Part shown: piece by piece, positions 29,935 through 63,730 of the stretch
How positions within the stretch are numbered: position 1 is the stretch's first letter
How the letters are laid out: every line of letters begins with the position of its first letter
Source: a virus
Length of the DNA: 64,000 nt
Strand: one strand, 5' to 3'
Virus record (IMG/VR): IMGVR_UViG_3300025122_000005
Location: 124,001 to 188,000 of that record
Made by a program: the position numbers and the translations under genes
The notes under the pieces: generated by a model
What the model saw: the letters and a program-made list of their open reading frames with translations, nothing else
What the model was told of the DNA's origin: nothing
Database searches by the model: none

Positions 29935-29944
29935 CTAATTAGAT
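29935..29944 (+). promoter_or_regulatory. Candidate late promoter element CTAATTA
   Basis: Within the 55-base gap after the 1,029-residue virion gene, CTAATTAGAT lies 35 bases before the next ATG. It matches the CTANTTA element repeated in other gaps of this window. A T-rich run precedes it, but I see no stem that would make it a terminator. Confidence 0.4.
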
Positions 29945-29969
29945 AGTAGAATAGTAAGGAGTAAAAAAT

Positions 29970-30983
29970 ATGGCTTTTCTTGATAATTCCGGAGATATTA
30001 TATTAGATGCAGTGTTAACGGATACTGGACGCTTCCGGATGGCAAGAGGGGATTTCAAAATAACAAAGTTTGCGCTTGGTGACGACGAAGTAGATTATTC
30101 CCTTTATAATAGAAATCACCCAAGCGGGTCCTCTTATTACGATTTAGAAATCTTAAAAACACCGGTATTAGAATCTTTTACGAACAATACTTCTCTCATG
30201 AAGTCAAAACTCATGACCATCACCAATACTAACATACTTCATTTACCGATCTTGAAACTATCCGACGGCGGGTACAAGGGTACCGCAGCAGAACTGCTTT
30301 TTTCAAAACTAGCAAACATCGGAACGTATGTTGTGACTGTGGACTCAAATACTGAGGACTCTGATACTTCGCTAAAGGAGCCAGATGTTAACGGGAAGGG
30401 CGTGCTTTTAGGTGCTCTGCGCGGCGGCGGACCCAATTACATTGCAGTTGAAACAGGGCTGGATACATTGAAGATTCCGCCTTCGTTGGATGTCCCCGCC
30501 AATTTGCAAGAAACACAATTTATAATAGAGATGGATGATAGGCTTGGGTCTTTAACGGGACCTCCGTTTTCTCCTAGTCAAGGAGCATCTCTACCTGCTT
30601 CATTTATAGATGATGACCAGATTGCCAGCTATTACATTAGTGCAAACTCAGGGATGGATTCTGGAGGGCTAATACGAAATCGTTATGATACTCGCCGCGG
30701 CACTGAAGAGCGCGGGAGCCCAACCGCACATAGAATCCGCGGTCCTAGAGGAAGAGTGTTAAACTTCAGAGTAAAACCCAGTATAAACCTAACAACTTCG
30801 ACATATCTTTTCGAAAAGTTGGGGAGCACATTTACTCAAACGGCAGATGACGCCCCACTCACCGGATTCAGAAGTGGTAAGACGTATTATTATATTGACT
30901 CATACGTGAGAGTTACGGCGGCAACGACTGGGTATTCTATCGACATACCAGTTCGATATATAAAGAAACAAGGAACAACTTAA
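29970..30983 (+). CDS. Virion structural protein, DDEV-type N-terminus (partial paralogue of 21852 gene)
   Basis: The 337-residue product begins with a segment LTDTGRFRMARGDFKITKF followed by ALGDDEVDYSLY. This aligns with LTQYGKYLLSKGRFKPEFY then AFSDDEVLYD in the gene at 21852: shared L-T, G, G-F, F-A, DDEV and Y positions. The remainder is beta-rich and unrelated by eye. AAGGAG precedes the ATG. It is followed 15 bases later by another structural gene. It is probably a baseplate or tail-associated virion protein; the exact role is not visible. Confidence 0.65.
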   Translation: MAFLDNSGDIILDAVLTDTGRFRMARGDFKITKFALGDDEVDYSLYNRNHPSGSSYYDLEILKTPVLESFTNNTSLMKSKLMTITNTNILHLPILKLSDGGYKGTAAELLFSKLANIGTYVVTVDSNTEDSDTSLKEPDVNGKGVLLGALRGGGPNYIAVETGLDTLKIPPSLDVPANLQETQFIIEMDDRLGSLTGPPFSPSQGASLPASFIDDDQIASYYISANSGMDSGGLIRNRYDTRRGTEERGSPTAHRIRGPRGRVLNFRVKPSINLTTSTYLFEKLGSTFTQTADDAPLTGFRSGKTYYYIDSYVRVTAATTGYSIDIPVRYIKKQGTT

Positions 30984-30998
30984 TACAAGGATTATAAG

Positions 30999-32294: not shown

Positions 32295-32300
32295 AGTGAT

Positions 32301-33566: not shown

Positions 33567-33567
33567 A

Positions 33568-35614: not shown

Positions 35615-35629
35615 GGAGGCTACTACAAT

Positions 35630-35821
35630 ATGGAAATTACTAAAGGAAAATTAAAGAAAATAATTCGTGAAGAAGTAGAACGAATGACCATCGCGGAAGA
35701 AGCCACCGTCGGAAAAGAAATGGCTGACAATCTTATCCAAGAATTCAAAAACCTACCTTTGAGTGACCAACGAGTTTTCTTATCTAGATTTGTTAAATTT
35801 CTAAATCAAGAAAACATTTGA
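35630..35821 (+). CDS. Small protein (63 aa) with capsid-targeting-like N-terminus
   Basis: The product begins MEITKGKLKKIIREEVERM, a basic amphipathic helix of the form ITKxxLKxIIREE that I associate with small and virion proteins of many T4-like marine phages. The rest is helical and ends KFLNQENI. T4 internal head proteins carry short N-terminal targeting helices that gp21 removes after a Leu/Ile-x-Glu site; IRE and similar tripeptides occur here. GGGAGG precedes the ATG. The stop TGA is embedded in the -35 hexamer of the next promoter. Possible roles are an encapsidated internal protein or a small regulator. Function is not established. Confidence 0.6.
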   Translation: MEITKGKLKKIIREEVERMTIAEEATVGKEMADNLIQEFKNLPLSDQRVFLSRFVKFLNQENI

Positions 35822-35846
35822 CTTCCTTGTCAAAGTATACTATAAT
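35818..35846 (+). promoter_or_regulatory. Near-consensus sigma70 promoter for the gp47-gp46 fusion gene
   Basis: TTGACT (35818-35823) and TATAAT (35841-35846) are separated by exactly 17 bases, five of six and six of six matches to the sigma70 consensus. It ends 26 bases before the ATG of the nuclease-ATPase gene. The -35 box overlaps the stop codon of the preceding gene. This is the only clear sigma70-type promoter I see in the window and suggests early expression independent of the late genes. Confidence 0.75.
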
Positions 35847-35872
35847 ATAAGTTAAGAAGCATTGGAGGTTAC

Positions 35873-38800
35873 ATGCGTTTTGCGCATATTGCGGACACAC
35901 ACATCAGGAATCTGAAATATCATTTTGAATATCGAGAAATTTTTAAGCAACTTTATTCTTCCCTAAAGGAAGAAAACGTCGATTATATTATTCATTGCGG
36001 CGATATCGCTCATACGAAGACACAAATATCACCAGAATTTGTTGATCTGTGCCGTGATTTCTTTGAGAATTTAAGCAATATTGCTCCGACTTATATAATT
36101 TTAGGGAATCATGACGGCAATTTACGTAATAGTAGTAGGCAAGATGCTTTAACTCCGATTGTTAAAGCATTAAAATCTCCCAATCTTCACCTAATTAAGA
36201 ATGCCAGAGAAGTTGTTTTGGATGAGAATTTTTGTTTAAATATTCTTTCTGTTTTTGATGAGGAAAATTGGATAAAACCGACGAATACTGAAATGATTAA
36301 TATTGCTCTTTATCATGGGGCGATAGATAAGTCTAAGACTGACTTAGACTGGACATTGGGGGGTGATCATGATATTGGGATCTTTGATAATTTTGATTTC
36401 GCTTTGCTTGGCGATATCCACAAGACGCAGAATCTAGACAAGGAGGGTCGTGTATGGTATGCTGGATCAACAGTCCAGCAGAACTTTGGAGAATCACTAG
36501 ATAAGGGATATTTACTTTGGGACATCGAAGATAAAGAAACGTTTACTACACGTCATATTGCATTTGATAATCCAAAGCCGTTCATTACCATTCCTCTTAC
36601 CAAGAAGGGCAATTTGCCTAGAAAGATAAGCGTTCCGTCTGGAGCACGTTTAAGAATCGTTTCTGATAATAATGTTTCTTTGGATAAGATGAGAAAAGCG
36701 GTAGAAATCATTAAGTACAGACACAATCCAGAATCTGTGACCTATCTTAACCGCGCCGCTGGGCAAAAGATATCTTTAGAATCTGCTTCGGGATTTGCGA
36801 AGAAGGACCTGAGAGACATAAAGACACAAGAGGACTTAATAAAGGATTATCTTAAAGATTTTCAAGTTTCAGAAGAAGTGTTAAACAGGGTGCTGGACTT
36901 AAACTCAAAGTATAATAAAGATATTGAACGCCAAGAAGACACTTATCGCAATATAAGCTGGAGTTTAAAGTCGCTTGAATGGGATCATCTCTTTAATTAC
37001 GGCGAAGGTAACAGGATAGATTTTTCGAAATTAGAGGGTATTGTTGGGATTTTTGGAAAAAACTTTTCAGGCAAGTCGTCAATTGTTGATTCTCTCTTGT
37101 ACGCTCTTTACAATTCTTCTTCGAAGTCTGTTCGTAAAAATCTTAACATTATTAACCAAAATAAGGACAAGTGCTTATCACGCGCCACTCTAGAGATTGA
37201 TAACACGATTTATTCTGCTGAAAGAACATCTGAGAAGTATATTAAAAAACTTAAGGGCGAAGAAACCTTGGAAGCTAAAACAAATTTAGAATTTAGTTCT
37301 GTGGATTTGCTGGGAAACGTAACAAGCTTGAACGGCACATCCCGCCAGGATACCGACAAGAATGTTAGAAAATATTTTGGGTCAATTGATGATTTTTTGC
37401 TGACATCTATGTCAAGCCAACTGGACTCTCTTGCGTTTATAAACGAGGGGTCTACAAAAAGAAAAGAAATTTTAGCGAAGTTCCTTGACTTGGAGATATT
37501 TGAAAAGAAATTTAAGATGGCAAAAGAGGATAGCTCTCTGACTAAAGGTGCTCTTAAAAAGCTAGAAGATATAGATTATGAATCTTTGATAGAGGAAGTA
37601 AAGAATAAGATTATCAAAAGTGAACTAGCGATTGTTAGGAATAAGGCAATTTGCGAGACCCTCCAAGAAGACACCGCAGATATGGGGGAAGAAATAAAGT
37701 CTTTGCAGGAAAAGATAGATTCTGTACCGGCGGAAATAATTGATATTGTTTCTTTGAAGGAGAAAATAAGAAATAAAAAAAGTAATATTAAAAGTATTTC
37801 AAATAACCAAAATATTAAGGAGGAAAAGCTAAAGGATGATCAATCACTTTATTTAAAAATGGAAGATTTTTTGAAGGACTTTGATATTGCTGAATGTTTG
37901 GAGCAAAAGGACCTTTACGAAGAAAAGGAAGAGCAGCTCTCTAATTTTCTTTCGGAGATGAAGCGGAAGTCGGAAAAGCTGAACACATATCACGACAAAG
38001 AGAGACTCTTACAGGAGGTTCCATGTGGTTCTGAGTACTCTCATTGTAAGTTTATAAAGGATGCTTACAAGGCGATTGATTTAATACAGATTTCGCAAAG
38101 AAGCATAAAGGATACTTCTATTAGCATTAATAACACAGGCGCAGAGATAAGAAAGATTGATTATAAGAAGATAGAAGAGCATATTGACAAATACAATCAG
38201 CTTTTAGACAAGAAAAACATTACTGCGAATAGAATGGCAGATTTGCAAGTCGAAATGGCCAAAGGCAAAACTGCCCTAATCCAGGCAAATGTTTTTTTGA
38301 AAGATCTTTTGGAAAAGGAAAAAGATTACGAAGACAATCGCGAGGTGATTGAAAATTTAGAAATTCTAATAAAAAAGAGAAACGAAATTAAAAGGTCCCT
38401 CTCCAAAAAGGAGAAGGAATATAAAGAATGTTATGAGGATACCTTGTCTTTTCACAAATCTCACGGCTCTCTAGAGGAAAGATTAAAACTATTAGGCGAA
38501 CAACAGGCGGAATACAAAACGTTAGCAACAGACTTTGCAGCTTATGATCTTCTTATGACTTGTTCTCATGCAAACGGTATTTCGTATGATATTATTAAGG
38601 AGCGGCTACCCATCATAAATCAGGAGATCGCTAAAATATTAACTAATATTGTTGAGTTTGAGATTTTTATTCAAAACGATGATAAAAAGTTGGATATCTT
38701 CATAAAGCATCCAAAACACGACCCGCGACCATTAGAAATGGGCTCCGGAGCTGAAAAGACGATTGCTTCAATGGCTATTCGTTTAGCTTTCTTAACTGTG

Positions 38801-39013
38801 TCGAGTTTACCAAAATCGGACCTATTTATATTAGACGAACCTGGTACTGCTTTGGATGAAGAGAACATGGAAGGATTTGTCAGGATTCTAGATATGGTTA
38901 AGGGGTATTTTAAAACTGTGCTTCTCATTTCCCATCTGGATACCCTCAAAGACTGTGTGGACATGCAAATAAGTATCGAGAGAAAATCTGGTTTTGCTCA
39001 TGTCAACGTATAG
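35873..39013 (+). CDS. Fused recombination endonuclease: gp47-like nuclease joined to gp46-like ATPase (SbcD-SbcC / Mre11-Rad50 type)
   Basis: The single 1,046-residue chain holds both subunits normally made separately. Residues 1-330 carry metallophosphoesterase motifs: ADTH (8-10), GDIAH (Asp44), LGNHD (His80), a YHG motif near 147 and LGDIHKT near 180. A linker with a helical capture region follows. The ATPase starts around 380, with Walker A GKNFSGKSS around 395. Long coiled coils flank an apex at about 717 with Cys-x6-Cys (PCGSEYSHCKF) instead of the classical CxxC zinc hook. Signature GSGAEKTIASM (about 957), Walker B LFILDEPG (about 984) and an H-loop ISHLD close the domain. Expected role: processing of double-strand ends for recombination-dependent replication. 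Confidence 0.9.
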   Translation: MRFAHIADTHIRNLKYHFEYREIFKQLYSSLKEENVDYIIHCGDIAHTKTQISPEFVDLCRDFFENLSNIAPTYIILGNHDGNLRNSSRQDALTPIVKALKSPNLHLIKNAREVVLDENFCLNILSVFDEENWIKPTNTEMINIALYHGAIDKSKTDLDWTLGGDHDIGIFDNFDFALLGDIHKTQNLDKEGRVWYAGSTVQQNFGESLDKGYLLWDIEDKETFTTRHIAFDNPKPFITIPLTKKGNLPRKISVPSGARLRIVSDNNVSLDKMRKAVEIIKYRHNPESVTYLNRAAGQKISLESASGFAKKDLRDIKTQEDLIKDYLKDFQVSEEVLNRVLDLNSKYNKDIERQEDTYRNISWSLKSLEWDHLFNYGEGNRIDFSKLEGIVGIFGKNFSGKSSIVDSLLYALYNSSSKSVRKNLNIINQNKDKCLSRATLEIDNTIYSAERTSEKYIKKLKGEETLEAKTNLEFSSVDLLGNVTSLNGTSRQDTDKNVRKYFGSIDDFLLTSMSSQLDSLAFINEGSTKRKEILAKFLDLEIFEKKFKMAKEDSSLTKGALKKLEDIDYESLIEEVKNKIIKSELAIVRNKAICETLQEDTADMGEEIKSLQEKIDSVPAEIIDIVSLKEKIRNKKSNIKSISNNQNIKEEKLKDDQSLYLKMEDFLKDFDIAECLEQKDLYEEKEEQLSNFLSEMKRKSEKLNTYHDKERLLQEVPCGSEYSHCKFIKDAYKAIDLIQISQRSIKDTSISINNTGAEIRKIDYKKIEEHIDKYNQLLDKKNITANRMADLQVEMAKGKTALIQANVFLKDLLEKEKDYEDNREVIENLEILIKKRNEIKRSLSKKEKEYKECYEDTLSFHKSHGSLEERLKLLGEQQAEYKTLATDFAAYDLLMTCSHANGISYDIIKERLPIINQEIAKILTNIVEFEIFIQNDDKKLDIFIKHPKHDPRPLEMGSGAEKTIASMAIRLAFLTVSSLPKSDLFILDEPGTALDEENMEGFVRILDMVKGYFKTVLLISHLDTLKDCVDMQISIERKSGFAHVNV

Positions 39014-39022
39014 GAGGGTATC

Positions 39023-40095: not shown

Positions 40096-40096
40096 A

Positions 40097-40495: not shown

Positions 40496-40500
40496 AACTA

Positions 40501-40510
40501 CTATTTAGTA
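40501..40510 (+). promoter_or_regulatory. Candidate late promoter element CTATTTA
   Basis: CTATTTAGTATAA lies in the 32-base gap, 27 bases before the ATG of the first packaging-module gene. It matches the repeated CTANTTA element and would start the packaging and head operon. Confidence 0.45.
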
Positions 40511-40527: not shown

Positions 40528-41127
40528 ATGGCTACTATATTAAACATCATAAACGGTATATCTCAAGTATGCTCAAACACACATGACGGCGCGACTGACT
40601 CCGACGGCAATCGTGTTGAGTTGGGTCTTAAAAGAGAAGAGGGCGACCCGATAATTGATTCTAGAGTTATGGATGGGTTTTCTGTGCGGTTTTATGGGGA
40701 TAAAATCTGCGTCTCATATCAGTGTGACCCTAAACTAAAAGATGTCCACAAGAATAATTTTGAGTCTAATATCGAATCAATGATAAATGACGTTGTCAAA
40801 TTTATTAAAAAGGAATATAAAAAGTTGACCAAAAACACTCTTTCTTTAACGGAGGAAGGCGAAATAGATGTTCTTGTACAATACATCTCCAGCGTTAGAA
40901 CAACCGTCACTGCTAAGAAGCACTACAAAATAGGCGGCAATCCACTGAGGGGTCAGGACGGCGCAAAAGACGGAAGTAAGGATCGTCTAGACGACACTTT
41001 TAAGAAGTTTCTTGAACTTGGTAAAAAGAGCCCCCGCGCCAAGAACGATAAATCTAAAAAAGATAATTATAAACCATTCGATCCGTTTAATATGGAAACT
41101 GGTGCTAGAAACAAAAATCTAAAGTAG
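40528..41127 (+). CDS. Conserved-looking protein upstream of the large terminase
   Basis: The 199-residue product has an N-terminal helical start (ATILNIINGISQV), a central mixed region (FSVRFYGDKICVSYQCD), and a C-terminal basic, Lys/Asp-rich tail. No family is recognised. Its place directly before the terminase large subunit is where T4 has the small terminase gp16, but I see no sequence evidence for that: the mixed fold does not show the expected helix-turn-helix and coiled coil. It could equally be a head or neck component. GCGAGGA lies upstream of the ATG. Confidence 0.55.
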   Translation: MATILNIINGISQVCSNTHDGATDSDGNRVELGLKREEGDPIIDSRVMDGFSVRFYGDKICVSYQCDPKLKDVHKNNFESNIESMINDVVKFIKKEYKKLTKNTLSLTEEGEIDVLVQYISSVRTTVTAKKHYKIGGNPLRGQDGAKDGSKDRLDDTFKKFLELGKKSPRAKNDKSKKDNYKPFDPFNMETGARNKNLK

Positions 41128-41131
41128 GAAA

Positions 41132-42718
41132 ATGTCTTTCCAGTTAACCAAGAAGGAAATAATGCGGGAGATTGTTAAGTGTGGCAAGGATCCTGTTTAT
41201 TTCATTAATAGCTACGCTCGCATTACCCATCCACAAAAAGGGCTAATTCCGTTTCATTTATATGATTTTCAAGAAGATTTGGTTGAGGACTTCCTAGACA
41301 ATCGTTTTAACGTCATTTTAAAAGCCAGACAATTAGGAATATCTACAATAACTGCTGCTTATGTCGTTTGGATGATGCTCTTCCATAGAGAAAAGAACGT
41401 TCTCGTTATCGCAACTAAATTCTCAACTGCATCCAATTTAGTGAAAAAAGTTAAAAATATTTTAAAAAATATACCAGAATGGTTAACTATCGCACACGTT
41501 ACAATTGACAACAGAACTTCTTTTGAGTTGTCAAACGGGTCTCAAATAAAGGCATCTTCAACTAGTGGTGACGCTGGACGGTCAGAGGCTCTTTCTTTAT
41601 TGGTTGTAGATGAGGCCGCTCACGTAGACGGATTAGACGATCTTTGGACTGGGCTGTATCCCACTCTTTCTACTGGCGGCCGCTGTATCGCCCTATCAAC
41701 ACCAAATGGTGTTGGCAATTGGTTTCACAAAGCTTATATGGAGGCGGAGCAGTCAATCAACGATTTTAAATCAACTAAACTTCCGTGGGATAGGCACCCG
41801 GATAGAGATAGAACGTGGTTTGAAAAAGAAACGAGAAATATGTCCAGACGCGAAATCGCACAAGAATTAGAATGTAATTTTAATATGTCTGGAGAGACTG
41901 TCTTTCATGGAGAGGACATTGCCTGGGTAGAAAACATGGTAAGAGAACCCAAGTATAGAACTGGGTTTGATAGAAATTATTGGATTTGGGAAGAGTATAA
42001 GCACGATAGTGATTATATGATAAGTGCCGATGTGGCACGAGGTGATGGAAGAGACTATTCAGTTTTTCATCTTATTAAGTTGGCGACAATGGAGATCATC
42101 GCAGAATATCAGGGAAAAGTAACGCCCGATGTCTTTTCAGATGTTTTGTTGAATGCTGGAAAAGAGTACGGCAGCTGCATGATAACAGTGGAAAACAATT
42201 CGGTAGGATATTCTGTTTTAGAGAAGCTTAGAGAAAAGAATTATCCCAATATTTACCACTCGATAAAATCTACCCATGAATACATAGACCAGATACAGGC
42301 AGAAAATAAATCAAATGCCGTCGCAGGATTCACCACTTCTTCTAAAACTAGACCATTAGTTATCGCTAAGATGGAGGAATTCGTAAGGAACAAACTAATT
42401 AAAATATATTCTGCGCGTCTTCTTAATGAAATGAAGACTTTTATATGGAATAACGGCAAACCTGAAGCAATGAGAAGCTATAATGATGATCTGGTTATGG
42501 CATGCTCAATTGGTTGTTGGATAAGGGATACTGCATTGGTGGAAAATCAGAGAAACACGGAATATAAAAAAGCTTGTCTGGATTCTATGATTGTAACGAA
42601 TTCTAGACTGGATACTACAATTCCAGGTCAAAATAGCTATAAAAATAAGAGCATATTTGATAAAATAGAGAAAACAAAGAGTCAATACGAACAATTTCCG
42701 TGGCTCTTCAAAGGATAA
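41132..42718 (+). CDS. Terminase large subunit (gp17-like ATPase-nuclease)
   Basis: The 528-residue protein has the two terminase domains. The N-terminal ATPase has a variant Walker A LKARQLGIST (residues 63-72, T4-like with Gln-Leu-Gly), Walker B LLVVDEAAH (156-164, Asp160/Glu161) and motif III CIALSTPNG (185-193). The C-terminal nuclease is RNase H-like: ISADVARGDGRDYS (Asp300), MITVENNSVGY, and a late NDDLVMA. It would pump DNA into the prohead through the portal and cut concatemers. It lies immediately before the portal gene, as in T4-like packaging modules. Confidence 0.95.
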   Translation: MSFQLTKKEIMREIVKCGKDPVYFINSYARITHPQKGLIPFHLYDFQEDLVEDFLDNRFNVILKARQLGISTITAAYVVWMMLFHREKNVLVIATKFSTASNLVKKVKNILKNIPEWLTIAHVTIDNRTSFELSNGSQIKASSTSGDAGRSEALSLLVVDEAAHVDGLDDLWTGLYPTLSTGGRCIALSTPNGVGNWFHKAYMEAEQSINDFKSTKLPWDRHPDRDRTWFEKETRNMSRREIAQELECNFNMSGETVFHGEDIAWVENMVREPKYRTGFDRNYWIWEEYKHDSDYMISADVARGDGRDYSVFHLIKLATMEIIAEYQGKVTPDVFSDVLLNAGKEYGSCMITVENNSVGYSVLEKLREKNYPNIYHSIKSTHEYIDQIQAENKSNAVAGFTTSSKTRPLVIAKMEEFVRNKLIKIYSARLLNEMKTFIWNNGKPEAMRSYNDDLVMACSIGCWIRDTALVENQRNTEYKKACLDSMIVTNSRLDTTIPGQNSYKNKSIFDKIEKTKSQYEQFPWLFKG

Positions 42719-46490: not shown

Positions 46491-46500
46491 CTAATTGTTG
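46491..46500 (+). promoter_or_regulatory. Near-match to the CTANTTA element upstream of the protease gene
   Basis: CTAATTGTTG differs from CTANTTA at one position and lies 55 bases before the protease ATG, in a 101-base gap. Between it and the start, a short GC-rich hairpin (GCGGG...CCCGC, 46519-46533) sits just before the Shine-Dalgarno sequence AAGGAGAG. Confidence 0.25.
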
Positions 46501-46545: not shown

Positions 46546-47139
46546 ATGAAACTATTGAGAGAATATTATGAACTTTGTGAAGGTGGCATATGCCAAGACC
46601 TTCTTACGGAAGATGAAAAACGCCGCGTCGCCGAAGGAGCTATAATCCTATCAGGTGTTATGCAAATGGCCGAAACCAAGAATCATAACGATAGAGTTTA
46701 TTCCCAGTCCATCTTAGAGAGAGAAGTGAATAATTATCGCAAGATGGTAGATGAGAGAAGAGCATTGGGCGAATTAGATCATCCTGATACTTCAGTTGTG
46801 AATTTGATAAATGTTTCGCACCTGGTGACAAATATATATATGGATGGTAACAAGTGTATGGGAAAGATAGAAGTCCTCGACACTCCTTCTGGCAACATTC
46901 TTCGAAATCTTGTTCAAAATCGCATCCCTCTTGGTATTTCTTCTAGAGGAATGGGTTCGACAAGGCAGGAGAATGGGTTAACGATAGTGGAAGACGATTT
47001 TCAATTGATTTGTTTTGATATGGTTTCTGATCCTTCGACACCTGGTGCCTTTATGGTGACAGAAGCCAAAGAAAGATCAAATATTTTTACAAAAGCTGAT
47101 AAGATTAACAGATTGCTGAACAGCATCATTAAAGAGTAA
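46546..47139 (+). CDS. Prohead maturation protease (gp21-like)
   Basis: I use ATG 46546, because AAGGAGAG lies just upstream; the frame extends 51 bases further but without a signal. The 197-residue product carries the herpesvirus-assemblin-like motifs of T4 gp21: ALGELDHP with catalytic His79 and PLGISSRGMG with Ser132/Ser133, and the strand DDFQLICFDMVSDPS that precedes the C-terminal part. It cleaves the scaffold, capsid and its own chain after Leu/Ile-x-Glu sites during head maturation. Position between the portal group and scaffold/capsid is the T4 order. Confidence 0.9.
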   Translation: MKLLREYYELCEGGICQDLLTEDEKRRVAEGAIILSGVMQMAETKNHNDRVYSQSILEREVNNYRKMVDERRALGELDHPDTSVVNLINVSHLVTNIYMDGNKCMGKIEVLDTPSGNILRNLVQNRIPLGISSRGMGSTRQENGLTIVEDDFQLICFDMVSDPSTPGAFMVTEAKERSNIFTKADKINRLLNSIIKE

Positions 47140-48394: not shown

Positions 48395-48426
48395 TATAAT
48401 TTCCTGTCATTTAACAAATTTAAATA

Positions 48427-48436
48427 CTAATTACTT
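48427..48436 (+). promoter_or_regulatory. Candidate late promoter element CTAATTA for scaffold and capsid genes
   Basis: CTAATTACTT lies in the 77-base AT-rich gap, 45 bases before the scaffold ATG. It matches the CTANTTA element and closely resembles CTATTTACT at 51408. Confidence 0.45.
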
Positions 48437-48471: not shown

Positions 48472-49569
48472 ATGTCATCCATGTTAGAACAAGCGATAGT
48501 TGATGCGAAAGCACTCAAAGAATCAGCAATCAAAAATGCAGAAGCAATAGTTGTTGAAAGATACTCAGATCAAATAAAGGAAGCGGTTTCTGCTTTGCTA
48601 GAGCAGGAAGAAGATCCCTTCGCAGAAGAAGACGAATTTGCGGAGGATTCTCCTGTTGAACCAGATATGGAGGCAGCGACAGATCCTTCTTTGGCTCAGG
48701 TCCCGCCTGCACTCGAAGAAGACCTTCCTGATTCTGCCGGACCGGTAAGCGACACCGACATCGTTCAATTGGATTTGGATGGTCTCCGACAACAGATAGA
48801 CAATTTGGAATCTGAAACTGGACAGGACGCATCGGATGTTCTCGCACCTGATCAGGTTTCTCACGAAACGGTGGCTCAAAACCTTGAACCTGCTGTAGCA
48901 GCTGCTCCCGAAGCAGTTTCTCCTTTGACTGAAGAGTCGGAAGAGATAGACGAGGAAATGGATATTGAGATTGATGAATCTTTACTAGAGGACATTTTAG
49001 AGAGACTTACAGTGGATATTGATCCACAAATGCGCGGTTGGGCGGGAACTCCGCAGAGTCAAATGGAAGAATACGCTGATATGGCCCTTGCCCGTGAAAA
49101 TGATGACAAGGTTAAAGAAGAAAACGAAGCCTTAAGGTCGAGACTTGAAGAGCTAAAAGAATCCCTTAAGAAAAACACAGATCAAAAAGAAAAACTTGCT
49201 GAAGAAAATAGCAAGTTTATGGAAGCAGTAATGATTTTAAAAGAGAAGGTTGATATGGTAAATGTTTCAAATGCGAAACTCTTGTATATCAACAAGGCAC
49301 TTGAAAATTCCTCCCTGAATGAGCGACAAAAAAGAAAGATTGTCGAAGCGATTTCTAAGGCCGAATCGACTAAGGAAGCGAAGGTTATTTATGAAACACT
49401 TCAAAGCACCGTGGGAAGTACAGAAAAACGTTCTGTGCCGAAATCACTTAGCGAAGCAGTTAATAGAAATTCTTCATTGCTTATTCACTCGCAACGAAAT
49501 AGGGAAAAAGATTCTACAGACCCCTTTTCAGCGCGACTTCAGCGTTTGGCTGGAATTAAAAAAACATAG
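48472..49569 (+). CDS. Prohead scaffold/core protein (gp22-like)
   Basis: This 365-residue protein is very acidic in its first half, with repeated Glu/Asp-rich stretches (EEDPFAEEDEFAEDSPVEPD), and a long charged coiled coil in its second half (EENEALRSRLEELKESLKKN). The C-terminal segment (ERQKRKIVEAISKAESTKEA, then NSSLLIHSQ and FSARLQRLAGI) resembles T4-type gp22 tails. Scaffold proteins guide capsid assembly and are cut up by gp21. It lies directly before the major capsid gene, as in T4. Family match is by position and composition; its acidic region contains several possible protease sites. Confidence 0.75.
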   Translation: MSSMLEQAIVDAKALKESAIKNAEAIVVERYSDQIKEAVSALLEQEEDPFAEEDEFAEDSPVEPDMEAATDPSLAQVPPALEEDLPDSAGPVSDTDIVQLDLDGLRQQIDNLESETGQDASDVLAPDQVSHETVAQNLEPAVAAAPEAVSPLTEESEEIDEEMDIEIDESLLEDILERLTVDIDPQMRGWAGTPQSQMEEYADMALARENDDKVKEENEALRSRLEELKESLKKNTDQKEKLAEENSKFMEAVMILKEKVDMVNVSNAKLLYINKALENSSLNERQKRKIVEAISKAESTKEAKVIYETLQSTVGSTEKRSVPKSLSEAVNRNSSLLIHSQRNREKDSTDPFSARLQRLAGIKKT

Positions 49570-49582: not shown

Positions 49583-51343
49583 ATGTCTGTTTTACAAAAA
49601 TTAACTGAAGGCATTATTCAACGCGATGTCTCTAGAGAGGGCGCAGCTATTCTCAACAAGTGGGAAAAGACTGGTCTTTTAGAGGGTCTCGGTAATGATG
49701 GTGCTAAAAATAATATGGCGGTTCTTCTTGAGAACCAAGCCAAGGAGCTTCTACGTGAGGCTTCTTCAATGGCAGCTGGCGATGTCGAAGGCTTCGCAGC
49801 AGTTGCTTTTCCAATCGTTCGTCGAGTATTCGGTGGATTGATTGCTAATGATCTAGTCTCGGTACAGCCGATGAGCCTACCAAGTGGTCTCATCTTCTTC
49901 CTTGACTTTACGCATACTCACGAGAAGGCTGGTGTCTCCCCCGGTGAGTCGGTTTATGGCGGCAACGTCATCGGTCGTCAAATCACTGGTGGTGTGAATC
50001 TTGCTCCGTCAGACCGCACCGGTCCTGGTGGGTTCTATGATCTCGGAACGGGATACACTTCGCCTACTGGGTCCGATACTTGGACTGCTGGTGAACTGGG
50101 TGAAAATTCTAGCTTTGGACGAAATAGCGCAGTTACAATTTCCGCCTTATCGGAGAATCAAAAGAAAGCTATTCGTTTTGACCCGGATATCCTTGCAGCC
50201 ACTTCGACCGAAAAGGTCGCTGTCGTGATGGTTTCTGCTTCTGCACTACCTGCTGATCTTAACAGAAACGCCCTTACGGCTCTTACCGTTGTTTCGGGCG
50301 CAGAAGGTGCTAGTGGTACTTTGGTGCGAAGACTGACTGCTCTGGACTCTTCTGGCAATCTTAAGCTGGTTTTCCACGGCGCAGCCGATGAGCAACTCCC
50401 GGAAGGTCTTGATAGCATTGCTATTACGTATCCACGTACAGATAAGTTTGAAGGCGGCGGCGCAGGCGCAGGCGCAGCTGACGCTCTTGGTTCGATTGTT
50501 GGCAACGACACATGGGGGCTTGAAGAGCCGGATGTCGCTACTGGCGAGGTCGGGTCAAGCACCAATAAGCAACGTATACCTGAGATCGACATCAAGGTTG
50601 ATAGTATTGCCGTAACGGCAGTCACTAAGAAACTCAAGGCTAAGTGGTCACCGGAATTGGGACAAGATCTCAATGCCTATCACAACCTTGATGCAGAAGT
50701 TGAGTTGACTGGTATTCTTTCGGAGCAGATTGCTCTAGAAATCGATCAGGAAATTCTCGGTGATCTTATCGTAGGTGCAAAAGCTGGTACTCGCTACTGG
50801 AGTCGTGCTCCTGGTTTGTTTGTTGACAGTAATGGTAATGAGCTTGGGGCAACATCTGCTGCTCCTGACTTCACTGGTACTGTCAGTGAATGGTATGAGA
50901 CTCTCATCGAGACTATCAATGATGTTAGTGCTCAGATTCACCGCAAGACGCTTCGCGGTGGCGCAAACTTCGTTGTTTGCTCGCCAGAAGTGGCCAACAT
51001 TCTTGAATTCACCAGTGGTTTCCGCGCAAGCGTAACTGCTGATCAAGACAAGGGTGATATCGGTGCTGTAAAGGTCGGCGCACTTTCTAAGAAGTTTGAG
51101 GTCTTTGTTGATCCTTATTTCCCAAGAAACGTGATCCTAGTTGGACGTAAGGGTAGTTCATTCCTTGAGAGTGGCTATGTATACGCCCCATATGTACCTC
51201 TACAGGTCACACCGACCATTTTCGGTACGGAAGATTTCGTGCCACGTAAGGGTGTTATGACCCGTTACGCGAAGAAAATGGTTCGACCAGATATGTATGG
51301 TCTTGTTATCGTTCGCGGTCTCTTAGGTGAGGCAGGATCTTAA
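49583..51343 (+). CDS. Major capsid protein (gp23-like)
   Basis: The 586-residue product carries the gp23 hallmark region: FAAVAFPIVRRVFGGLIANDLVSVQPMSLPSG (residues 71-102) followed by a FLDFTH strand, matching the HK97-like capsid fold. The C-terminal part has RKTLRGGANFVVCSPEVANIL and YAPYVPLQVTPTIF. The N-terminal 60 residues likely form a cleaved delta domain: LREA at residues 57-60 fits the gp21 Leu/Ile-x-Glu site. It forms the hexamers of the shell. AGGAGG precedes the ATG. A terminator follows the stop. No vertex protein gene (gp24) is seen beside it. Confidence 0.95.
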   Translation: MSVLQKLTEGIIQRDVSREGAAILNKWEKTGLLEGLGNDGAKNNMAVLLENQAKELLREASSMAAGDVEGFAAVAFPIVRRVFGGLIANDLVSVQPMSLPSGLIFFLDFTHTHEKAGVSPGESVYGGNVIGRQITGGVNLAPSDRTGPGGFYDLGTGYTSPTGSDTWTAGELGENSSFGRNSAVTISALSENQKKAIRFDPDILAATSTEKVAVVMVSASALPADLNRNALTALTVVSGAEGASGTLVRRLTALDSSGNLKLVFHGAADEQLPEGLDSIAITYPRTDKFEGGGAGAGAADALGSIVGNDTWGLEEPDVATGEVGSSTNKQRIPEIDIKVDSIAVTAVTKKLKAKWSPELGQDLNAYHNLDAEVELTGILSEQIALEIDQEILGDLIVGAKAGTRYWSRAPGLFVDSNGNELGATSAAPDFTGTVSEWYETLIETINDVSAQIHRKTLRGGANFVVCSPEVANILEFTSGFRASVTADQDKGDIGAVKVGALSKKFEVFVDPYFPRNVILVGRKGSSFLESGYVYAPYVPLQVTPTIFGTEDFVPRKGVMTRYAKKMVRPDMYGLVIVRGLLGEAGS

Positions 51344-51367: not shown

Positions 51368-51394
51368 GCCCCCCATTGATTTGGGGGGCTTTTT
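51368..51394 (+). terminator. Rho-independent terminator after the capsid gene
   Basis: A perfect 7-bp stem GCCCCCC / GGGGGGC with loop ATTGATTT is followed by TTTTT. It lies 24 bases after the capsid stop codon and would end the packaging and head operon. Confidence 0.9.
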
Positions 51395-51407
51395 CTAAAC
51401 TGTTAAA

Positions 51408-51417
51408 CTATTTACTA
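51408..51417 (+). promoter_or_regulatory. Candidate late promoter element CTATTTA after the capsid terminator
   Basis: CTATTTACTA begins 13 bases after the T-run of the terminator and 58 bases before the next ATG. A terminator-element pair recurs after the next gene, arguing that the element marks new transcription starts. Confidence 0.5.
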
Positions 51418-51939: not shown

Positions 51940-51967
51940 AACCCCAAGTCTTATGGCTTGGGGTTTT
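51940..51967 (+). terminator. Rho-independent terminator after the decoration-like gene
   Basis: A perfect 9-bp stem AACCCCAAG / CTTGGGGTT with loop TCTTATGG ends in a T-run. It lies about 30 bases after the stop codon. Confidence 0.88.
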
Positions 51968-51979
51968 CTATTGTGTGGA

Positions 51980-51989
51980 CTATTTATTA
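51980..51989 (+). promoter_or_regulatory. Candidate late promoter element CTATTTA
   Basis: CTATTTATTATAC lies 12 bases after the terminator and 36 bases before the next ATG. The 11 bases CTATTTATTAT also occur at 56364. Confidence 0.5.
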
Positions 51990-52408: not shown

Positions 52409-52435
52409 CATAGCGGATTTTCTTTGTTTGTCTAA

Positions 52436-52445
52436 CTAATTAAAA
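52436..52445 (+). promoter_or_regulatory. Candidate late promoter element CTAATTA before the neck genes
   Basis: CTAATTAAAA lies in the 60-base gap, 33 bases before the neck-protein ATG. It is an exact CTANTTA match. Confidence 0.4.
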
Positions 52446-52468: not shown

Positions 52469-53767
52469 ATGCCAACGACACTAACCCCAGCTAGCACAAT
52501 GAGCAAGTCTGTACTACCATCTACTGGTTCTGTTAATGATGTCGATGCAGTGGTACCGTATAGGGTATATTCCAAGACCACATCAGATTTCTATGATTTT
52601 AACTTCTTGTCTGGAGCAGCAGATCAGGTTACTTATGTATATAGAAAATTAGGTGGTGACGTACTAGATATTGAACTAACGACAGCGAATGTATATGCTG
52701 CGTATGAAGAGGCAGTTTTAGAATATTCATACATACTAAATATTCATCAAGCGAATAACTCGCTTTCTTCATTTTTGGGTCATTCAACGGGAGCATTCGA
52801 CCATCTAGGCAACCTTAAATCAACAGGAGACACCAGTCTGTCATCTTCGTTAGGCGGCACTCAAGTAGCATTAAAATACCCGCGTTTTGACTTTGGATAT
52901 GCTAGAAGGGCTTCTGAAGCCGCAGGCGCAGAAGCAGGCGTTGGACGTGGTCAAGCAGAATATTCAGCGTCTTTCGATGTTACAATTGGTCAGCAAGATT
53001 ATGATTTACAGACGATAATCTCATCATCAGCTATCGCTTCCGGCAGTCTTCCATATTTCAATAAAGTTGGGAACAAGAAGCTTCTTGTGAAGAAGGTTTT
53101 TTATAAAACACCTGCAGCAATGTGGAGATTCTTTGGATATTACGGAGGGTTAAACGTTGTAGGAAACCTCCACAGTTATGGACAATTTTCAGATACTTCA
53201 ACATTTGAGTTAATTCCCGCTTGGCACAACAAAGCTCAGGCGATGGCGTTTGAAGACTCCATTTATACAAGGATGTCCCACTTCTCGTATGAATTAAAGG
53301 ATAATAAGTTGAGAATTTTTCCAATACCATACCACCGTGGACCTTCTAAAATGTGGGTCCAGTTTTCAATTCCTTCGGATCCGTTTTCTGAGGAAGCTTC
53401 AGGAACTGACACTGGGATAGATGGTATTAACAACATGAATACTCTACCGTTTGCAAACTTGCCATATAAGAGCATAAACAGCATAGGTAAGCAGTGGATT
53501 AGGAGGTTCGCTCTATCTTTGTGCAAAGAGATACTTGGCCAGATTAGGAGTAAGTTTCAAACCATTCCTATTCCAGGCGAGTCGGTTACGTTAAACGGTT
53601 CAGATTTGTTAACTCAGGCGAGAGAAGAACAAGATAAGTTAAGGGAGGAGTTAAAGACGACACTGGCTGAAATGACATATTCTAAGTTAGCTCAAATTGA
53701 TTCAGAAACAATGGACGCCAGCATCAATATACAAAAGAAGATACCGTTGTCGGTATTTGTGGGGTAA
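52469..53767 (+). CDS. Neck/head completion protein, gp13-like
   Basis: The 432-residue product contains LGGDVLDIELTTANVYAAYEEAVLEYSYILN near residue 70-100, the helical segment I associate with gp13-type neck proteins of T4-like cyanophages. A C-terminal helical region (IRSKFQTIPIPG) follows. The protein is larger than T4 gp13 (309 residues), with extra Ser/Gly-rich N-terminal sequence. Gp13 and gp14 close the head after packaging and provide the attachment for the tail. It is followed by a gp14-like and two gp15-like genes, the T4 13-14-15 order. CGGAGGA precedes the ATG. Confidence 0.7.
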   Translation: MPTTLTPASTMSKSVLPSTGSVNDVDAVVPYRVYSKTTSDFYDFNFLSGAADQVTYVYRKLGGDVLDIELTTANVYAAYEEAVLEYSYILNIHQANNSLSSFLGHSTGAFDHLGNLKSTGDTSLSSSLGGTQVALKYPRFDFGYARRASEAAGAEAGVGRGQAEYSASFDVTIGQQDYDLQTIISSSAIASGSLPYFNKVGNKKLLVKKVFYKTPAAMWRFFGYYGGLNVVGNLHSYGQFSDTSTFELIPAWHNKAQAMAFEDSIYTRMSHFSYELKDNKLRIFPIPYHRGPSKMWVQFSIPSDPFSEEASGTDTGIDGINNMNTLPFANLPYKSINSIGKQWIRRFALSLCKEILGQIRSKFQTIPIPGESVTLNGSDLLTQAREEQDKLREELKTTLAEMTYSKLAQIDSETMDASINIQKKIPLSVFVG

Positions 53768-53773
53768 TAATTC

Positions 53774-56358: not shown

Positions 56359-56363
56359 GGGCT

Positions 56364-56373
56364 CTATTTATTA
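56364..56373 (+). promoter_or_regulatory. Candidate late promoter element CTATTTA
   Basis: CTATTTATTATGTGG lies in the 57-base gap just after the second terminator-like gene and 52 bases before the next ATG. It has the same 11-base core as the element at 51980. Confidence 0.45.
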
Positions 56374-56415
56374 TGTGGAAAAAACCATAATACTACATTA
56401 AAAGGAGAGAGAATA

Positions 56416-56928: not shown

Positions 56929-56931
56929 TTC

Positions 56932-57168: not shown

Positions 57169-57177
57169 ATTCATAAC

Positions 57178-57190
57178 ATATTTATTTAAG
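57178..57190 (+). promoter_or_regulatory. Near-match promoter element ATATTTATTTAAG in the gap before the fibre gene
   Basis: This one-mismatch version of CTANTTA lies 141 bases before the next ATG in a 150-base AT-rich gap. Its last 12 bases (TATTTATTTAAG) are identical to those at 60499, upstream of the sheath gene. The rest of the gap shows no further signal to me beyond a late AGGAGG. Confidence 0.3.
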
Positions 57191-57318
57191 TCCAGTTAAT
57201 TTATTCCATCTCACCTAAAATTTAAATGAATTAAATATTCACTCCAATCCCAGTTACAATTTTATAAATCATTAATTAAAAGTTCAGCCATAAATCAAAA
57301 AAATAGGAGGATTTAAAA

Positions 57319-60396: not shown

Positions 60397-60424
60397 GAAA
60401 TAGTTTCTAAAGAGAGAACATCTG

Positions 60425-60451
60425 GGGGGAGGCCGTAGCCTCCCCCTTTTT
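60425..60451 (+). terminator. Rho-independent terminator after the fibre-like gene
   Basis: A perfect 9-bp stem GGGGGAGGC / GCCTCCCCC with a CGTA loop is followed by TTTTT, 28 bases after the stop codon. Confidence 0.92.
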
Positions 60452-60497
60452 GTTTATTTGTATCATTTATTAACGATACCTTTCGGGTTCTAGAATA

Positions 60498-60507
60498 CTA
60501 TTTATTT
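60498..60507 (+). promoter_or_regulatory. Candidate late promoter element CTATTTA before the sheath gene
   Basis: CTATTTATTTAAG lies 46 bases after the terminator T-run and 74 bases before the sheath ATG. It is an exact CTANTTA match and shares TATTTATTTAAG with the gap at 57179. Confidence 0.5.
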
Positions 60508-60571
60508 AAGAAAGAAGTTTAAAGATTAGTCGATTCTTGTCAAAAAATTGTTTTTTAAGGAGAAATAAAAT

Positions 60572-63500
60572 ATGTCCGTTGATAGATTTAAATTCGTCTC
60601 ACCTGGAGTTTTTATTAATGAAATTGATAACTCACAACCCGGGCCCGCCCCCGGGGTTCTCGGTCCTGCAATAATTGGTCGCTTAGAAAGAGGACCCAGT
60701 AACCGACCCGTCACTGTTGGGTCAATGAGTGAATTCGTAGAAATATTTGGAAATCCAATTGCCGGTGGTAGAGGCGGTGACGTTTGGAGAGATGGCAATT
60801 ATCTTGCCCCTACATACGCAGCATACGCTGCCATGGCGTATCTGAGGAATTCAGCACCCGTTACTGTGGTGCGAGTACTCGGAGAGGCACACGACTCAGC
60901 GGTCGCGGGAGGTGAAGCAGGATGGAAACACTCTAACTCTCATGCTGCAGGAACGGATGTAACCCCATCAGGAAACGGTGGTGCTTTTGGACTATTCCTG
61001 TTTTCTTCGGGGTCCAACCAATACGATTTTGAAGGATCGTATGTTGGCGACAGGAGAAACTTGGGTGCTAAGAGTAGTAGAGCTAAAGCAAGAACCACTG
61101 GTTCTCTGGCGGCGGTTTGGTATTTCGATGCAGGTGCTATCGAGCTTTCGGGTACCTTTATAGCGGGACAACGAGCGACCTACCGATCAGGATCGCAAGC
61201 AGCGAGTAAACTGGGCGCAGGCAATACTGCCGCCGCCGGTAATTCCATTTTCTTTAAGGCAAGTAACACCGACACGATGGAGTTCACAACTGTTCTTTTC
61301 GATAATGCGAACGTTGGCAAGAAGGTCACTTTTAATTTTGATAGGAATAGCGATAAATATATAAGAAAGGTTTTCAATACAAATCCAACCCTCATGGGCA
61401 GCGCAGTCAGTGACTCGAAAAAGTATTTTCTGGGAGAGACATTTGACCGGCACGCGAAAGATCTGCACGGATCTGGAACACTTCATCAGGGCGAGTTGGG
61501 CGCGGACCCCACGCTTTATGGGTGTATTGTTGGATTACAGAGCACAACTCATAATTGGGGATCAAACCAGATAAGTACACAACCTGCTAAAACAGGATGG
61601 TTTTTTGGTCAAGACCTTTCAAGCAACACAACTAAGTTTGATGCAGCAAAACAACAAAAATTATTTAGGATTGTTGGTTTGGAGGACGGCGAATGGTCTT
61701 CCCGAAATGTTAAGGTTTCAATAAGTGATCACCGCGCACCAAATGACGTGGATCCATATGGGTCTTTTTCTGTCACTTTGAGATACACAAGGGATCACGA
61801 CGGACAGCGAAAGGTTTTAGAAAGATTTAGTCAATGTAACTTGAATCCTAATTCAAATAATTTTATTGGTGCAAAGATAGGTGACCAATATCAAGAATGG
61901 GATGAGACAGATAAGCGATATAGAACTTACGGGACTTGGCCAAATCAGTCTCGTTTTGTGAGAGTTGAATTAGATTCAGATGTGGAAGAGGGAATATCAG
62001 ATCCGGCATATTTGCCATTTGGGTTCTACGGTCCACCTAGATATAAGAGATTCACTCTCACAGCTGTTACATCTGGAGAATTATCCGGATCAACTGTTCA
62101 CGCTATCAACGCTGGAAACGCAACCCCTAACGGTGGCGTAGAGGGCGCATTGATGTCCGGTTCGCTGTTTGTTTCTGGTTCACGTAACGCGATTTTGTCT
62201 GGAGGATTAGGCGCAATTCCTTTTAAGTGTAACGGGATTTTCGCATCTGCAACAACTGGTTCTCACACAGTTTATGCTGGTGAAGCATCATCTGTCGCAT
62301 CGGTTGTGTTCCCGTCACTTCCCCTAAGAAGATCTGCTTCTGCAGAGGGATTAAGAAACGACAAGATGGCTCACTTCGGAGTCAGCACTTACAGGTCACC
62401 CACAAGCACTAGATTTGATGAGTCTTATCTGGACATTGTAAGGGGTGGTCAAGGAATAGCAGCAGATACATATGACCCAGGCAACAACACTGAATATTCT
62501 TTTATATTCACGCTAGACGACGTTATCGCAGCCAATTCGGCGGCCACTAGCGTTAAGACAGCGTTCTACCAGTCCGGATCTAGAAAAGCAGCTACTTCTT
62601 ATACTGCACTTAGAATGGGCGCGGGGTCTGGCTCTTGGACGGAATTGATTAAGACCGGATTTACCAAGTTTACTTCACCGATGTATGGTGGTTTCGACGG
62701 TCTGAACATCAAGGAGAGAGCACCTTTTGGCAATCACGTTGTCGGTGCTTCCGGAGTGGCGTTTAAGAACAATTACGCGGCAAACTCATTGAAGCGCGCC
62801 ATCGATGCTGTGGCAGAACCAGAGGTTGTAGATATCAACCTAATGGCAGTCCCTGGCATTCGTGAGCCTCTCATCACAGACCACGTATTAAGGGTCTGCG
62901 AGGACCGCGGAGACGCCCTTGCAGTGATCGATCTAGAGCAGGGTGGGTATCAGCCATCAACAGAAACAACCGATAACTTTAAGACAAGAATATCCAATAA
63001 TAATGTTACAGACTGTGTTAATACTCTGTCACAGAGAGGGCTAAACACGAGTTATGGTTGTGCTTACTTCCCGTGGGTAAAGATCTACGATGAGATTAAC
63101 GCACAACAGGTTTGGGTACCACCGTCAGTTGTGGCACTCGGCACAATGGCATCAACCCAGAGACTCGGCGAACTTTGGTTCGCTCCTGCAGGATTTACCC
63201 GCGGCGGTCTAAGTGAAGGCTCCGCTGGTATGCCGGTACTGGCGGTATCGCAAAGATTGTCTGCCAAGGATAGAGACGATCTATATGAGAACCAAGTTAA
63301 TCCGATAGCATCATTCCCGGCAGAGGGGATTGTGATTTTCGGACAAAAGACGCTACAGGCAACACCTTCAGCACTTGACAGAATCAATGTCAGAAGACTA
63401 ATGGTGTACCTAAAGAAGGAAATCTCCAGAATTGCTTCAAGACTGCTGTTTGAGCAGAATGTGCAGGCAACTTGGAATAAATTCCGCGGTCAGGTAGAAC

Positions 63501-63694
63501 CATTCCTTCAGCAGGTGAAGTCTGGTTTTGGGGTTCAGGAATATAAGGTTGTTCTTGACGGAACTACGACAACTCCTGATTTAATTGATAGAAACATCAT
63601 GTATGCCAAGATCTTCATAAAGCCAGCGAAGGCTTTGGAATTCATTGCGATAGATTTTATTGTTACGAACCAAGGCGCGGCTTTTGATGATTAA
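60572..63694 (+). CDS. Tail sheath protein (gp18-like), enlarged
   Basis: The 1,040-residue product is far longer than T4 gp18 (659). The family N-terminus is present: SPGVFINEIDNSQ, GPAIIGRLERGP, VGSMSEFVEIFGNP. The C-terminal conserved domain is complete: RINVRRLMVYLKKEI, RLLFEQNVQATWNKFR, YKVVLDGTTTTPD and DRNIMYAKIFIKPAKALEFI. The extra length lies in the middle, with Ser/Gly/Ala-rich segments that probably form outward domains. Sheath subunits polymerise around the tube and contract to drive infection. AAGGAG precedes the ATG. The tail tube gene follows after 65 bases. Confidence 0.93.
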   Translation: MSVDRFKFVSPGVFINEIDNSQPGPAPGVLGPAIIGRLERGPSNRPVTVGSMSEFVEIFGNPIAGGRGGDVWRDGNYLAPTYAAYAAMAYLRNSAPVTVVRVLGEAHDSAVAGGEAGWKHSNSHAAGTDVTPSGNGGAFGLFLFSSGSNQYDFEGSYVGDRRNLGAKSSRAKARTTGSLAAVWYFDAGAIELSGTFIAGQRATYRSGSQAASKLGAGNTAAAGNSIFFKASNTDTMEFTTVLFDNANVGKKVTFNFDRNSDKYIRKVFNTNPTLMGSAVSDSKKYFLGETFDRHAKDLHGSGTLHQGELGADPTLYGCIVGLQSTTHNWGSNQISTQPAKTGWFFGQDLSSNTTKFDAAKQQKLFRIVGLEDGEWSSRNVKVSISDHRAPNDVDPYGSFSVTLRYTRDHDGQRKVLERFSQCNLNPNSNNFIGAKIGDQYQEWDETDKRYRTYGTWPNQSRFVRVELDSDVEEGISDPAYLPFGFYGPPRYKRFTLTAVTSGELSGSTVHAINAGNATPNGGVEGALMSGSLFVSGSRNAILSGGLGAIPFKCNGIFASATTGSHTVYAGEASSVASVVFPSLPLRRSASAEGLRNDKMAHFGVSTYRSPTSTRFDESYLDIVRGGQGIAADTYDPGNNTEYSFIFTLDDVIAANSAATSVKTAFYQSGSRKAATSYTALRMGAGSGSWTELIKTGFTKFTSPMYGGFDGLNIKERAPFGNHVVGASGVAFKNNYAANSLKRAIDAVAEPEVVDINLMAVPGIREPLITDHVLRVCEDRGDALAVIDLEQGGYQPSTETTDNFKTRISNNNVTDCVNTLSQRGLNTSYGCAYFPWVKIYDEINAQQVWVPPSVVALGTMASTQRLGELWFAPAGFTRGGLSEGSAGMPVLAVSQRLSAKDRDDLYENQVNPIASFPAEGIVIFGQKTLQATPSALDRINVRRLMVYLKKEISRIASRLLFEQNVQATWNKFRGQVEPFLQQVKSGFGVQEYKVVLDGTTTTPDLIDRNIMYAKIFIKPAKALEFIAIDFIVTNQGAAFDD

Positions 63695-63720
63695 AAGCAG
63701 CAATAAACAATATAATATGA

Positions 63721-63730
63721 CTAGTTAAAG
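63721..63730 (+). promoter_or_regulatory. Candidate element CTAGTTA before the tail tube gene
   Basis: CTAGTTAAAG matches CTANTTA with G at the variable position and lies 39 bases before the tube ATG. AATATAATATG directly upstream also resembles a -10 box, but no -35 box is visible. Confidence 0.3.

Follow-up and report, generated by a model that had tools for sequence, protein, structure and literature searches.

The 8-bp element ACTANTTA, which recurs in the gaps upstream of the virion genes of this phage, is in all likelihood its late-promoter box, a −10-type element read by the phage's own gp55-family σ factor on the host core RNA polymerase. The window analyzed here, a stretch of 64,000 nucleotides, spans bases 124001 to 188000 of the 190,183-base virus record IMGVR_UViG_3300025122_000005. 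It encodes a T4-superfamily myovirus, in which a terminase, a portal, a gp23-type capsid protein, a head-tail adaptor, and a contractile sheath were recognized, together with one SbcCD-like nuclease gene (Table 1). A simple gene caller placed 44 of 44 window genes on the plus strand, and a near-identity DNA search of 20 kb against a phage collection returned no match. Elsewhere in the record, a modified-base (PurZ) reading of the gene at record positions 70317 to 71312 was rejected, as adenylosuccinate synthase scored higher than PurZ; neither passed its cut-off.

A first-pass annotation of this DNA had noticed CTANTTA in "almost every" intergenic gap and proposed it as a likely late promoter, suggesting a distinct late σ factor or a modified RNA polymerase. 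All nine exact copies that it listed are present on the plus strand at 27 to 74 nt before start codons, the distances from the C being 27, 33, 35, 36, 39, 45, 52, 58, and 74 nt. Gaps of at least 30 nt number 13 and total 1,076 nt; the gap at positions 1 to 74 is bounded by the window edge, which leaves 12 internal gaps, in agreement with the earlier count of twelve (about 1.05 kb). The motif stands forward in 9 of the 13 gaps, with one reverse match; the enrichment is clear, and "almost every" gap is more correctly 9 of the 12 internal ones. In 5,000 dinucleotide shuffles of the gaps, the mean number of gaps with CTANTTA was 0.86, the maximum was 5, and none reached 9. The earlier chance expectation of about 0.5 was slightly low, since A+T makes up 69% of the gaps rather than 59%. 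When 7-mers with up to one internal wildcard were ranked, CTANTTA came first in the window gaps. The tighter subset CTATTTANTA, which had been assigned to four sites, occurs in the gaps four times forward and zero times in reverse, against a shuffle mean of 0.03. Two one-mismatch sites of the first-pass annotation do exist but are weak, and the gene start at 46495 that goes with one of them is uncertain.

Table 1. Promoter boxes, terminators, and genes of the window discussed in the text (window positions)
Feature	Position	Strand	Remarks
Late promoter box cCTAATTA	29934..29941	+	predicted +1 29947; upstream of ORF 29970-30983
Late promoter box aCTATTTA	40500..40507	+	predicted +1 40513; upstream of ORF 40528-41127
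Late promoter box aCTAATTA	48426..48433	+	predicted +1 48439; upstream of ORF 48472-49569 and the capsid gene
Late promoter box aCTATTTA	51407..51414	+	predicted +1 51420; 13 nt past terminator
Late promoter box aCTATTTA	51979..51986	+	predicted +1 51992; 12 nt past terminator
Late promoter box aCTAATTA	52435..52442	+	predicted +1 52448; upstream of gene 52469-53767
Late promoter box tCTATTTA	56363..56370	+	predicted +1 56376
Late promoter box aCTATTTA	60497..60504	+	predicted +1 60510; upstream of tail sheath gene
Late promoter box aCTAGTTA	63720..63727	+	predicted +1 63733
Degenerate candidate box, one mismatch, weak	57178..57184	+	sequence inspection
Degenerate candidate box, one mismatch, weak	46491..46497	+	overlaps uncertain start codon; gene caller starts gene at 46546
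Intrinsic terminator	51368..51394	+	after major capsid gene
Intrinsic terminator	51940..51967	+	
Intrinsic terminator	60424..60451	+	upstream of sheath promoter
σ70-type promoter TTGACT-N17-TATAAT	35818..35846	+	before SbcCD-like gene; gap without late box
SbcCD-like gene	35873..39013		
Terminase gene	41132..42718		preceded by ORF 40528-41127
Major capsid protein gene, gp23 family	49583..51343	+	anchor for comparison of relatives
Gene with head-tail adaptor match	52469..53767		
Tail sheath gene	60572..63694		

What is special about the motif is its placement in gaps. Over the whole window and both strands, CTANTTA occurs 26 times against 39 expected, i.e., without enrichment, and 13 of the 22 forward matches fall within coding sequence; thus, the motif is gap-specific. 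Enrichment is likewise lacking across the whole record, which holds 60 forward and 15 reverse copies, and the same letters read backwards are commoner (66 and 93). Outside the gaps, the strand difference arises in part because the reverse complement contains stop codons (TAA and TAG), which leaves the gap counts unaffected. Outside the window, four stretches of the record of 20 kb each had CTANTTA in 9 of 54 gaps, with one reverse match and 1.9 expected, and 0 of 200 shuffles reached 9. Seven of these nine gaps carry CTAATTA; in the other two, only 11 nt separate the box from the called start, which leaves too little room for a promoter if that start is correct.

Relatives were represented by the best 80 of 599 loci from a search with the capsid protein, whose best segments are 58 to 79% identical. 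Their gaps of up to 400 nt were delimited with our own gene caller; the loci are related, and the gaps are not independent events. In these best 80 of 599 loci, CTANTTA stands forward in 333 of 444 gaps and in reverse in 15, with 27.2 expected from shuffles. It ranks first there among all 7-mer patterns, and ACTATTTA alone occurs in 206 of the 444 gaps versus 3.4 expected. The T4 box TATAAATA is found in 0 of the 13 window gaps and in 5 of the 444 gaps of the same best 80 loci versus 5.8 expected, i.e., at chance level. Capsid proteins so divergent leave little chance identity in gaps, and survival of the box therefore points to selection. Around the σ gene described below, 80 loci yielded CTANTTA in 36 of 204 gaps (6 reverse; 7.7 in shuffles), and 19 of the 36 matches lie in gaps of 30 to 39 nt, probably one orthologous gap. 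The box stands before virion genes, and its contrast between the capsid side (best 80 of 599 loci) and the σ side rests on the capsid side.

The profile of 357 different sites reads A (88%), CTA, N (mostly T), and TTA, followed by T or A. Distances from box to start codon run from 25 to 97 nt (5th to 95th percentile), and 7 of 361 boxes lie less than 24 nt from the start, whereas random placement would give 76.6 of 340. Sequence downstream of the box was read from the 99 boxes at least 50 nt upstream of a start codon, away from the confusing ribosome-binding site; at C+12, G makes up 52%, and at C+13, A makes up 64%. In T4 numbering, this peak puts the box at −13 to −6 (A−13, C−12, T−11, A−10, N−9, T−8, T−7, and A−6) and G or A at +1/+2; a purine occupies only six of the nine predicted +1 positions in the window. 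In T4 P23, G and A follow TATAAATA at the same spacing, judging from an oligonucleotide printed in the available part of PMC7892883. Our first reading was another register, TATTTATA versus TATAAATA, with the T of CTA at −13 or the element taken as the T4 box on the opposite strand. It was dropped on three grounds: ACTANTTA is precisely the block that is conserved, purines peak at C+12/C+13, and the boxes of phages Aeh1 and P-HM2 begin with C (−12 in Aeh1).

A box of this shape might also be the −10 element of a host σ factor, primary or alternative, used for the virion genes, with the gp55-like protein doing something else. CTATTTA does look like a weak version of a −10 hexamer, and the genome does contain promoters of the host type. 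Nonetheless, we consider this explanation highly unlikely. The box is not accompanied by a −35 signal: a TTGACA-like hexamer at the right spacing (15 to 19 nt upstream) was found at 69 of 361 boxes versus 61 of 361 for the reversed hexamer. The record's host-type promoters look different and stand elsewhere. The motif-free gap that the first-pass annotation had credited with a σ70 promoter indeed carries one (Table 1), probably of an early class embedded in the late region, and other stretches of the record contain eight forward and one reverse, seven of the eight beginning TTGACTT; they are a class separate from the CTANTTA boxes of the same record. In addition, a gp55-family σ is present and co-occurs with the box, and similar T-rich boxes are found in relatives with hosts as unlike as Flavobacterium, Rhodothermus, and Microcystis, as described below.

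Boxes often follow closely behind terminators. The 12- to 13-nt spacing previously noted behind two terminators of the window is right (Table 1), a terminator is present in 131 of 337 motif gaps versus 6 of 92 motif-free gaps, and the GG...TTTT pattern that precedes the box in the profile of sites is read as terminator tails. The distance from T run to box is broad, with 37 of 63 at 11 to 18 nt (26 loci), and stays much the same when the gap behind the capsid gene is set aside; a fixed spacing was therefore rejected as a functional feature and taken as compact packing. These placements bear on two further explanations. An element that acts in the RNA leader, by affecting translation, stability, or processing, would agree with the position ahead of start codons and the near absence of copies on the noncoding strand, but the varying distance to the start, the frequent location close behind terminators, where little read-through RNA is expected, and the purine signal at a fixed distance downstream make it extremely improbable. 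Scarcely any weight falls on the view that a phage protein with no relation to gp55, whether an activator or a replication or recombination protein, binds the box: an operator could likewise be short and conserved, and gp33 and gp45 homologs were not found in the record, yet orientation on one strand with the downstream gene (333 versus 15 in the best 80 of 599 loci) and fixed spacing to a purine are features of a promoter.

A candidate for reading the box, a 239-amino-acid protein, is encoded at record positions 117453 to 118172, about 6 kb upstream of the window. The late-σ family phrog_234 gave a single match in the record, with an E value of 9.8e-7, and at the loose limit used the same family also matched 7 of 14 control genomes; the protein itself matched phrog_234 with an E value of 9e-6. 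A profile of the protein compared with seven gp55 proteins gave an E value of 3.4e-5 and a probability of 72, with residues 8 to 118 aligned. Its AlphaFold2 model has a mean pLDDT of 80 and a pTM of 0.43. With VIA-align, the best of 348 chains for this model was T4 gp55 in the open complex (7d7c_F; Z 11.1, 119 residues, 3.8 Å), and further rows were mostly σ factors; for a helical protein, this score of a predicted model is supportive, not proof. Foldseek with the same model returned no match at an E value of 0.001 or better, a PDB sequence search returned none at an E value of 10, and a single-sequence hhalign comparison with T4 gp55 was uninformative. These matches identify the protein as a divergent gp55-family late σ. 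Its model has extra C-terminal helices, residues 171 to 233, that are absent from T4 gp55 and whose pattern suggests a helix-turn-helix-like domain.

The σ and the box also occur together in relatives. Fourteen of 15 long contigs with this σ also encode the capsid protein, and in 13 of these 14 the box lies in a gap beside the capsid gene, the 14th locus having no gap. Across these 14 short capsid loci, 29 of 35 gaps carry the box forward and 2 in reverse. Conversely, the σ was found in 2 of 15 box-bearing capsid-side contigs, most of which are fragments. A gp55-like relative is also encoded by the uncultured phage LR756508, yet no such motif is prominent in its 43 to 48 gaps. Very probably, the box is common to a large, mostly uncultured group of T4-like viruses with a matching σ protein.

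Residues aligned with those that face the box in T4 gp55 partly differ from them. In the structure described in the available text of PMC7892883, T4 gp55 places A−12, A−9, and A−8 in pockets with Y97, N13/H95, and T99. The equivalents in 31 aligned clade proteins are an invariant Y99, T20/F97, and S101. Three cyanophage gp55s have F at the H95 place but keep N13 and T99; the gp55-like protein of Flavobacterium phage immuto has Q at the T99 place, and that of LR756508 has D at the N13 place. The change of H95 to F was rejected as a mark of altered specificity because cyanophages also have F yet keep AAATA. By alignment, N13 to T and T99 to S appear to accompany N−9 and T−8, a correlation in one clade.

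In T4 late transcription, the partners of gp55 are the coactivator gp33 and the sliding clamp gp45. Searches of the record for gp45 (PF02916 and phrog_223), gp33 (phrog_254), and a bacterial beta clamp (PF02767) found none of them, which in a possibly incomplete record, and with families that may be too divergent for the models, is weak evidence. The RNA polymerase family Rpb2 was likewise sought in the record and not found; thus, nothing points to a phage-encoded multisubunit polymerase. One arrangement would be a two-domain σ whose gp55-like region 2 reads ACTANTTA and whose C-terminal helix-turn-helix-like domain does the job of gp33 at the RNA polymerase flap, so that gp33 itself would be absent, and a gp45-type clamp perhaps as well. 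We regard it as speculative and rather doubtful; if true, late transcription would lack the link to replication that it has in T4. It is in its C-terminal domain and missing helpers that the system is more novel.

T4 late promoters consist of an 8-bp box, TATAAATA, at −13 to −6 and depend on gp55, gp33, and gp45, as set out in the available parts of PMC7892883, PMC2988020, and PMC1524935. The promoters predicted here are T4-like in having one 8-bp box at −13 to −6, without a −35 element, before virion genes, and with a gp55-family σ on the host RNA polymerase. They are unlike those of T4 in that the box is ACTANTTA, with C at −12, N (mostly T) at −9, and T at −8, and in that the σ has 239 amino acids with an extra C-terminal domain, while gp33 and gp45 were not detected in the record. 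The available portion of PMC1524935 gives the late box of Aeromonas phage Aeh1 as CTAAATA, inferred from sequence, with C at −12 according to its authors and a diverged gp55. As far as that portion goes, the two boxes share C−12, T−11, A−10, T−7, and A−6, whereas Aeh1 keeps A−9 and A−8 and our phage has N−9 and T−8; Aeh1 is a precedent for a diverged gp55 paired with a diverged box. Thus, the first-pass annotation was right that the box differs from that of T4, but agreement with Aeh1 at 5 of 7 positions indicates a variant of the gp55 system, not an unrelated one. The late promoter of cyanophage S-PM2 is NATAAATA in the available part of PMC2984593; cyanophage late promoters have the same register and gene class as the window box and keep AA at −9/−8. 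As controls, the method ranked TTATAAA first in the T4 late region, where TATAAATA occurs in 9 of 21 gaps forward and 6 reverse, and ranked CTAAATA first in cyanophage P-HM2 (4 of 11 gaps; 0.17 expected).

T-rich boxes are also found more widely in the T4 family. TATTTAT occurs in 20 of 31 gaps of Flavobacterium phage immuto (1.45 expected) and in 10 of 19 gaps of Microcystis phage Mel-JY01 (1.8 expected), and TATTTAA occurs in 14 of 32 gaps of Rhodothermus phage RM378 (1.2 expected). These three gp23-type phages lie on the same side of the capsid tree as the window phage and share with it a T-rich core upstream of genes; unlike in the window, a C before TATTTA is not required, and the strand bias of TATTTAA/T is weaker than in the window clade (20 forward and 7 reverse in immuto, 14 and 9 in RM378, and 10 and 5 in Mel-JY01). 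Neither LR756508 nor LR756511 has such a box among its top patterns. The annotated σ of RM378 is of another type, with Pfam Sigma70_r2 and r4, and the RM378 record gave no match to the σ of the window phage; thus, similar boxes do not always go with the same σ. Sixteen genome-bin loci were taken, 12 of them with three or more gaps; TATTTAT was clearly enriched in L190 (6 gaps forward and 0 reverse) and L199 (7 and 1) and more weakly in others. Among five further gp23 phages, XacN1 had ATAAATA as its top pattern (6 of 25 gaps); the other four, namely, CM1, X1, S-SKS1, and a Klebsiella jumbo phage, have a few A-rich boxes, which were not top-ranked. The capsid tree of 24 rows has two sides split at 100/100; its root was placed at the midpoint, where, as the tool cautions, long branches meet. 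The change from A-rich to T-rich boxes coincides with this deep split.

A search of open-licence papers found none recognized as describing this motif, a scope that does not imply undescribed status. No description was recognized in the available parts of PMC3037559, PMC5587285, and PMC5780444, and in that of PMC5931544, the CTATTTA listed in a table belongs to a terminator.

Taken together, conservation before genes near the capsid gene, promoter-like placement, and a divergent gp55-family σ on box-bearing contigs support the proposal that a distinct phage σ reads the element as a late promoter. The system is best read as one of gp55-type late promoters whose specificity is altered, that is, as a variant of the system of T4 in which both box and σ have changed. 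The 239-amino-acid σ would direct the host core RNA polymerase to ACTANTTA at −13 to −6, without a −35 element, and RNA would start about six nt past the box, usually with a purine, presumably late in infection. Each transcription unit of virion genes would be headed by one such promoter, often close behind the terminator of the preceding unit. This provides a readable late-gene map, with units, promoters, and a candidate σ, for a large, mostly uncultured group of T4-like phages. Furthermore, it offers a natural variant pair of σ and promoter for asking how gp55 chooses bases, in which the equivalents of T4 N13 and T99 are T and S in 31 of 31 clade proteins and Y97 is kept.

Two further candidate promoter patterns were seen in the rest of the record. 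In the seven matching gaps of L182 and L183, two 20-kb stretches that together cover record positions 40001-80000, the proposed late box CTANTTA takes the form CTAATTA, not CTATTTA; promoters with this form may belong to a class of their own, either middle or weaker. L182 to L185, four such stretches lying outside the window, also hold a host-type class, in which 7/8 promoters start with TTGACTT and end in TATTAT-like hexamers; these probably represent the early class.

Several other genes of the record are listed below. A single ORF matches both SbcD-like and SbcC-like families, so it may be a fusion of both nuclease subunits. This ORF is preceded by a sigma70-type promoter of its own.

Selected genes and large ORFs of the record
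Feature	Position	Length (aa)	Family matches
Very large ORF	75-6638	2187	
Very large ORF	10786-21852	3688	
SbcCD-like ORF	35873-39013	1046	SbcD-like, residues 1-704; SbcC-like, residues 306-1043
Adenylosuccinate-synthase-like gene	L183:10317-11312 (record 70317-71312)		purA and purZ models, each match under its cut-off

Among relatives, a single in-frame TAA lies inside 3 of the 14 capsid matches on contigs bearing the gp55-family late sigma (loci L214, L218, and L219); a sequencing or reading error, a different genetic code or a disrupted gene might each account for it. The gp23-type relative L199, which carries TATTTAT boxes, comes from an assembly named Prochlorococcus sp. AG-409-L21, a cyanobacterium; this name may hint at the host of one of the side branches.
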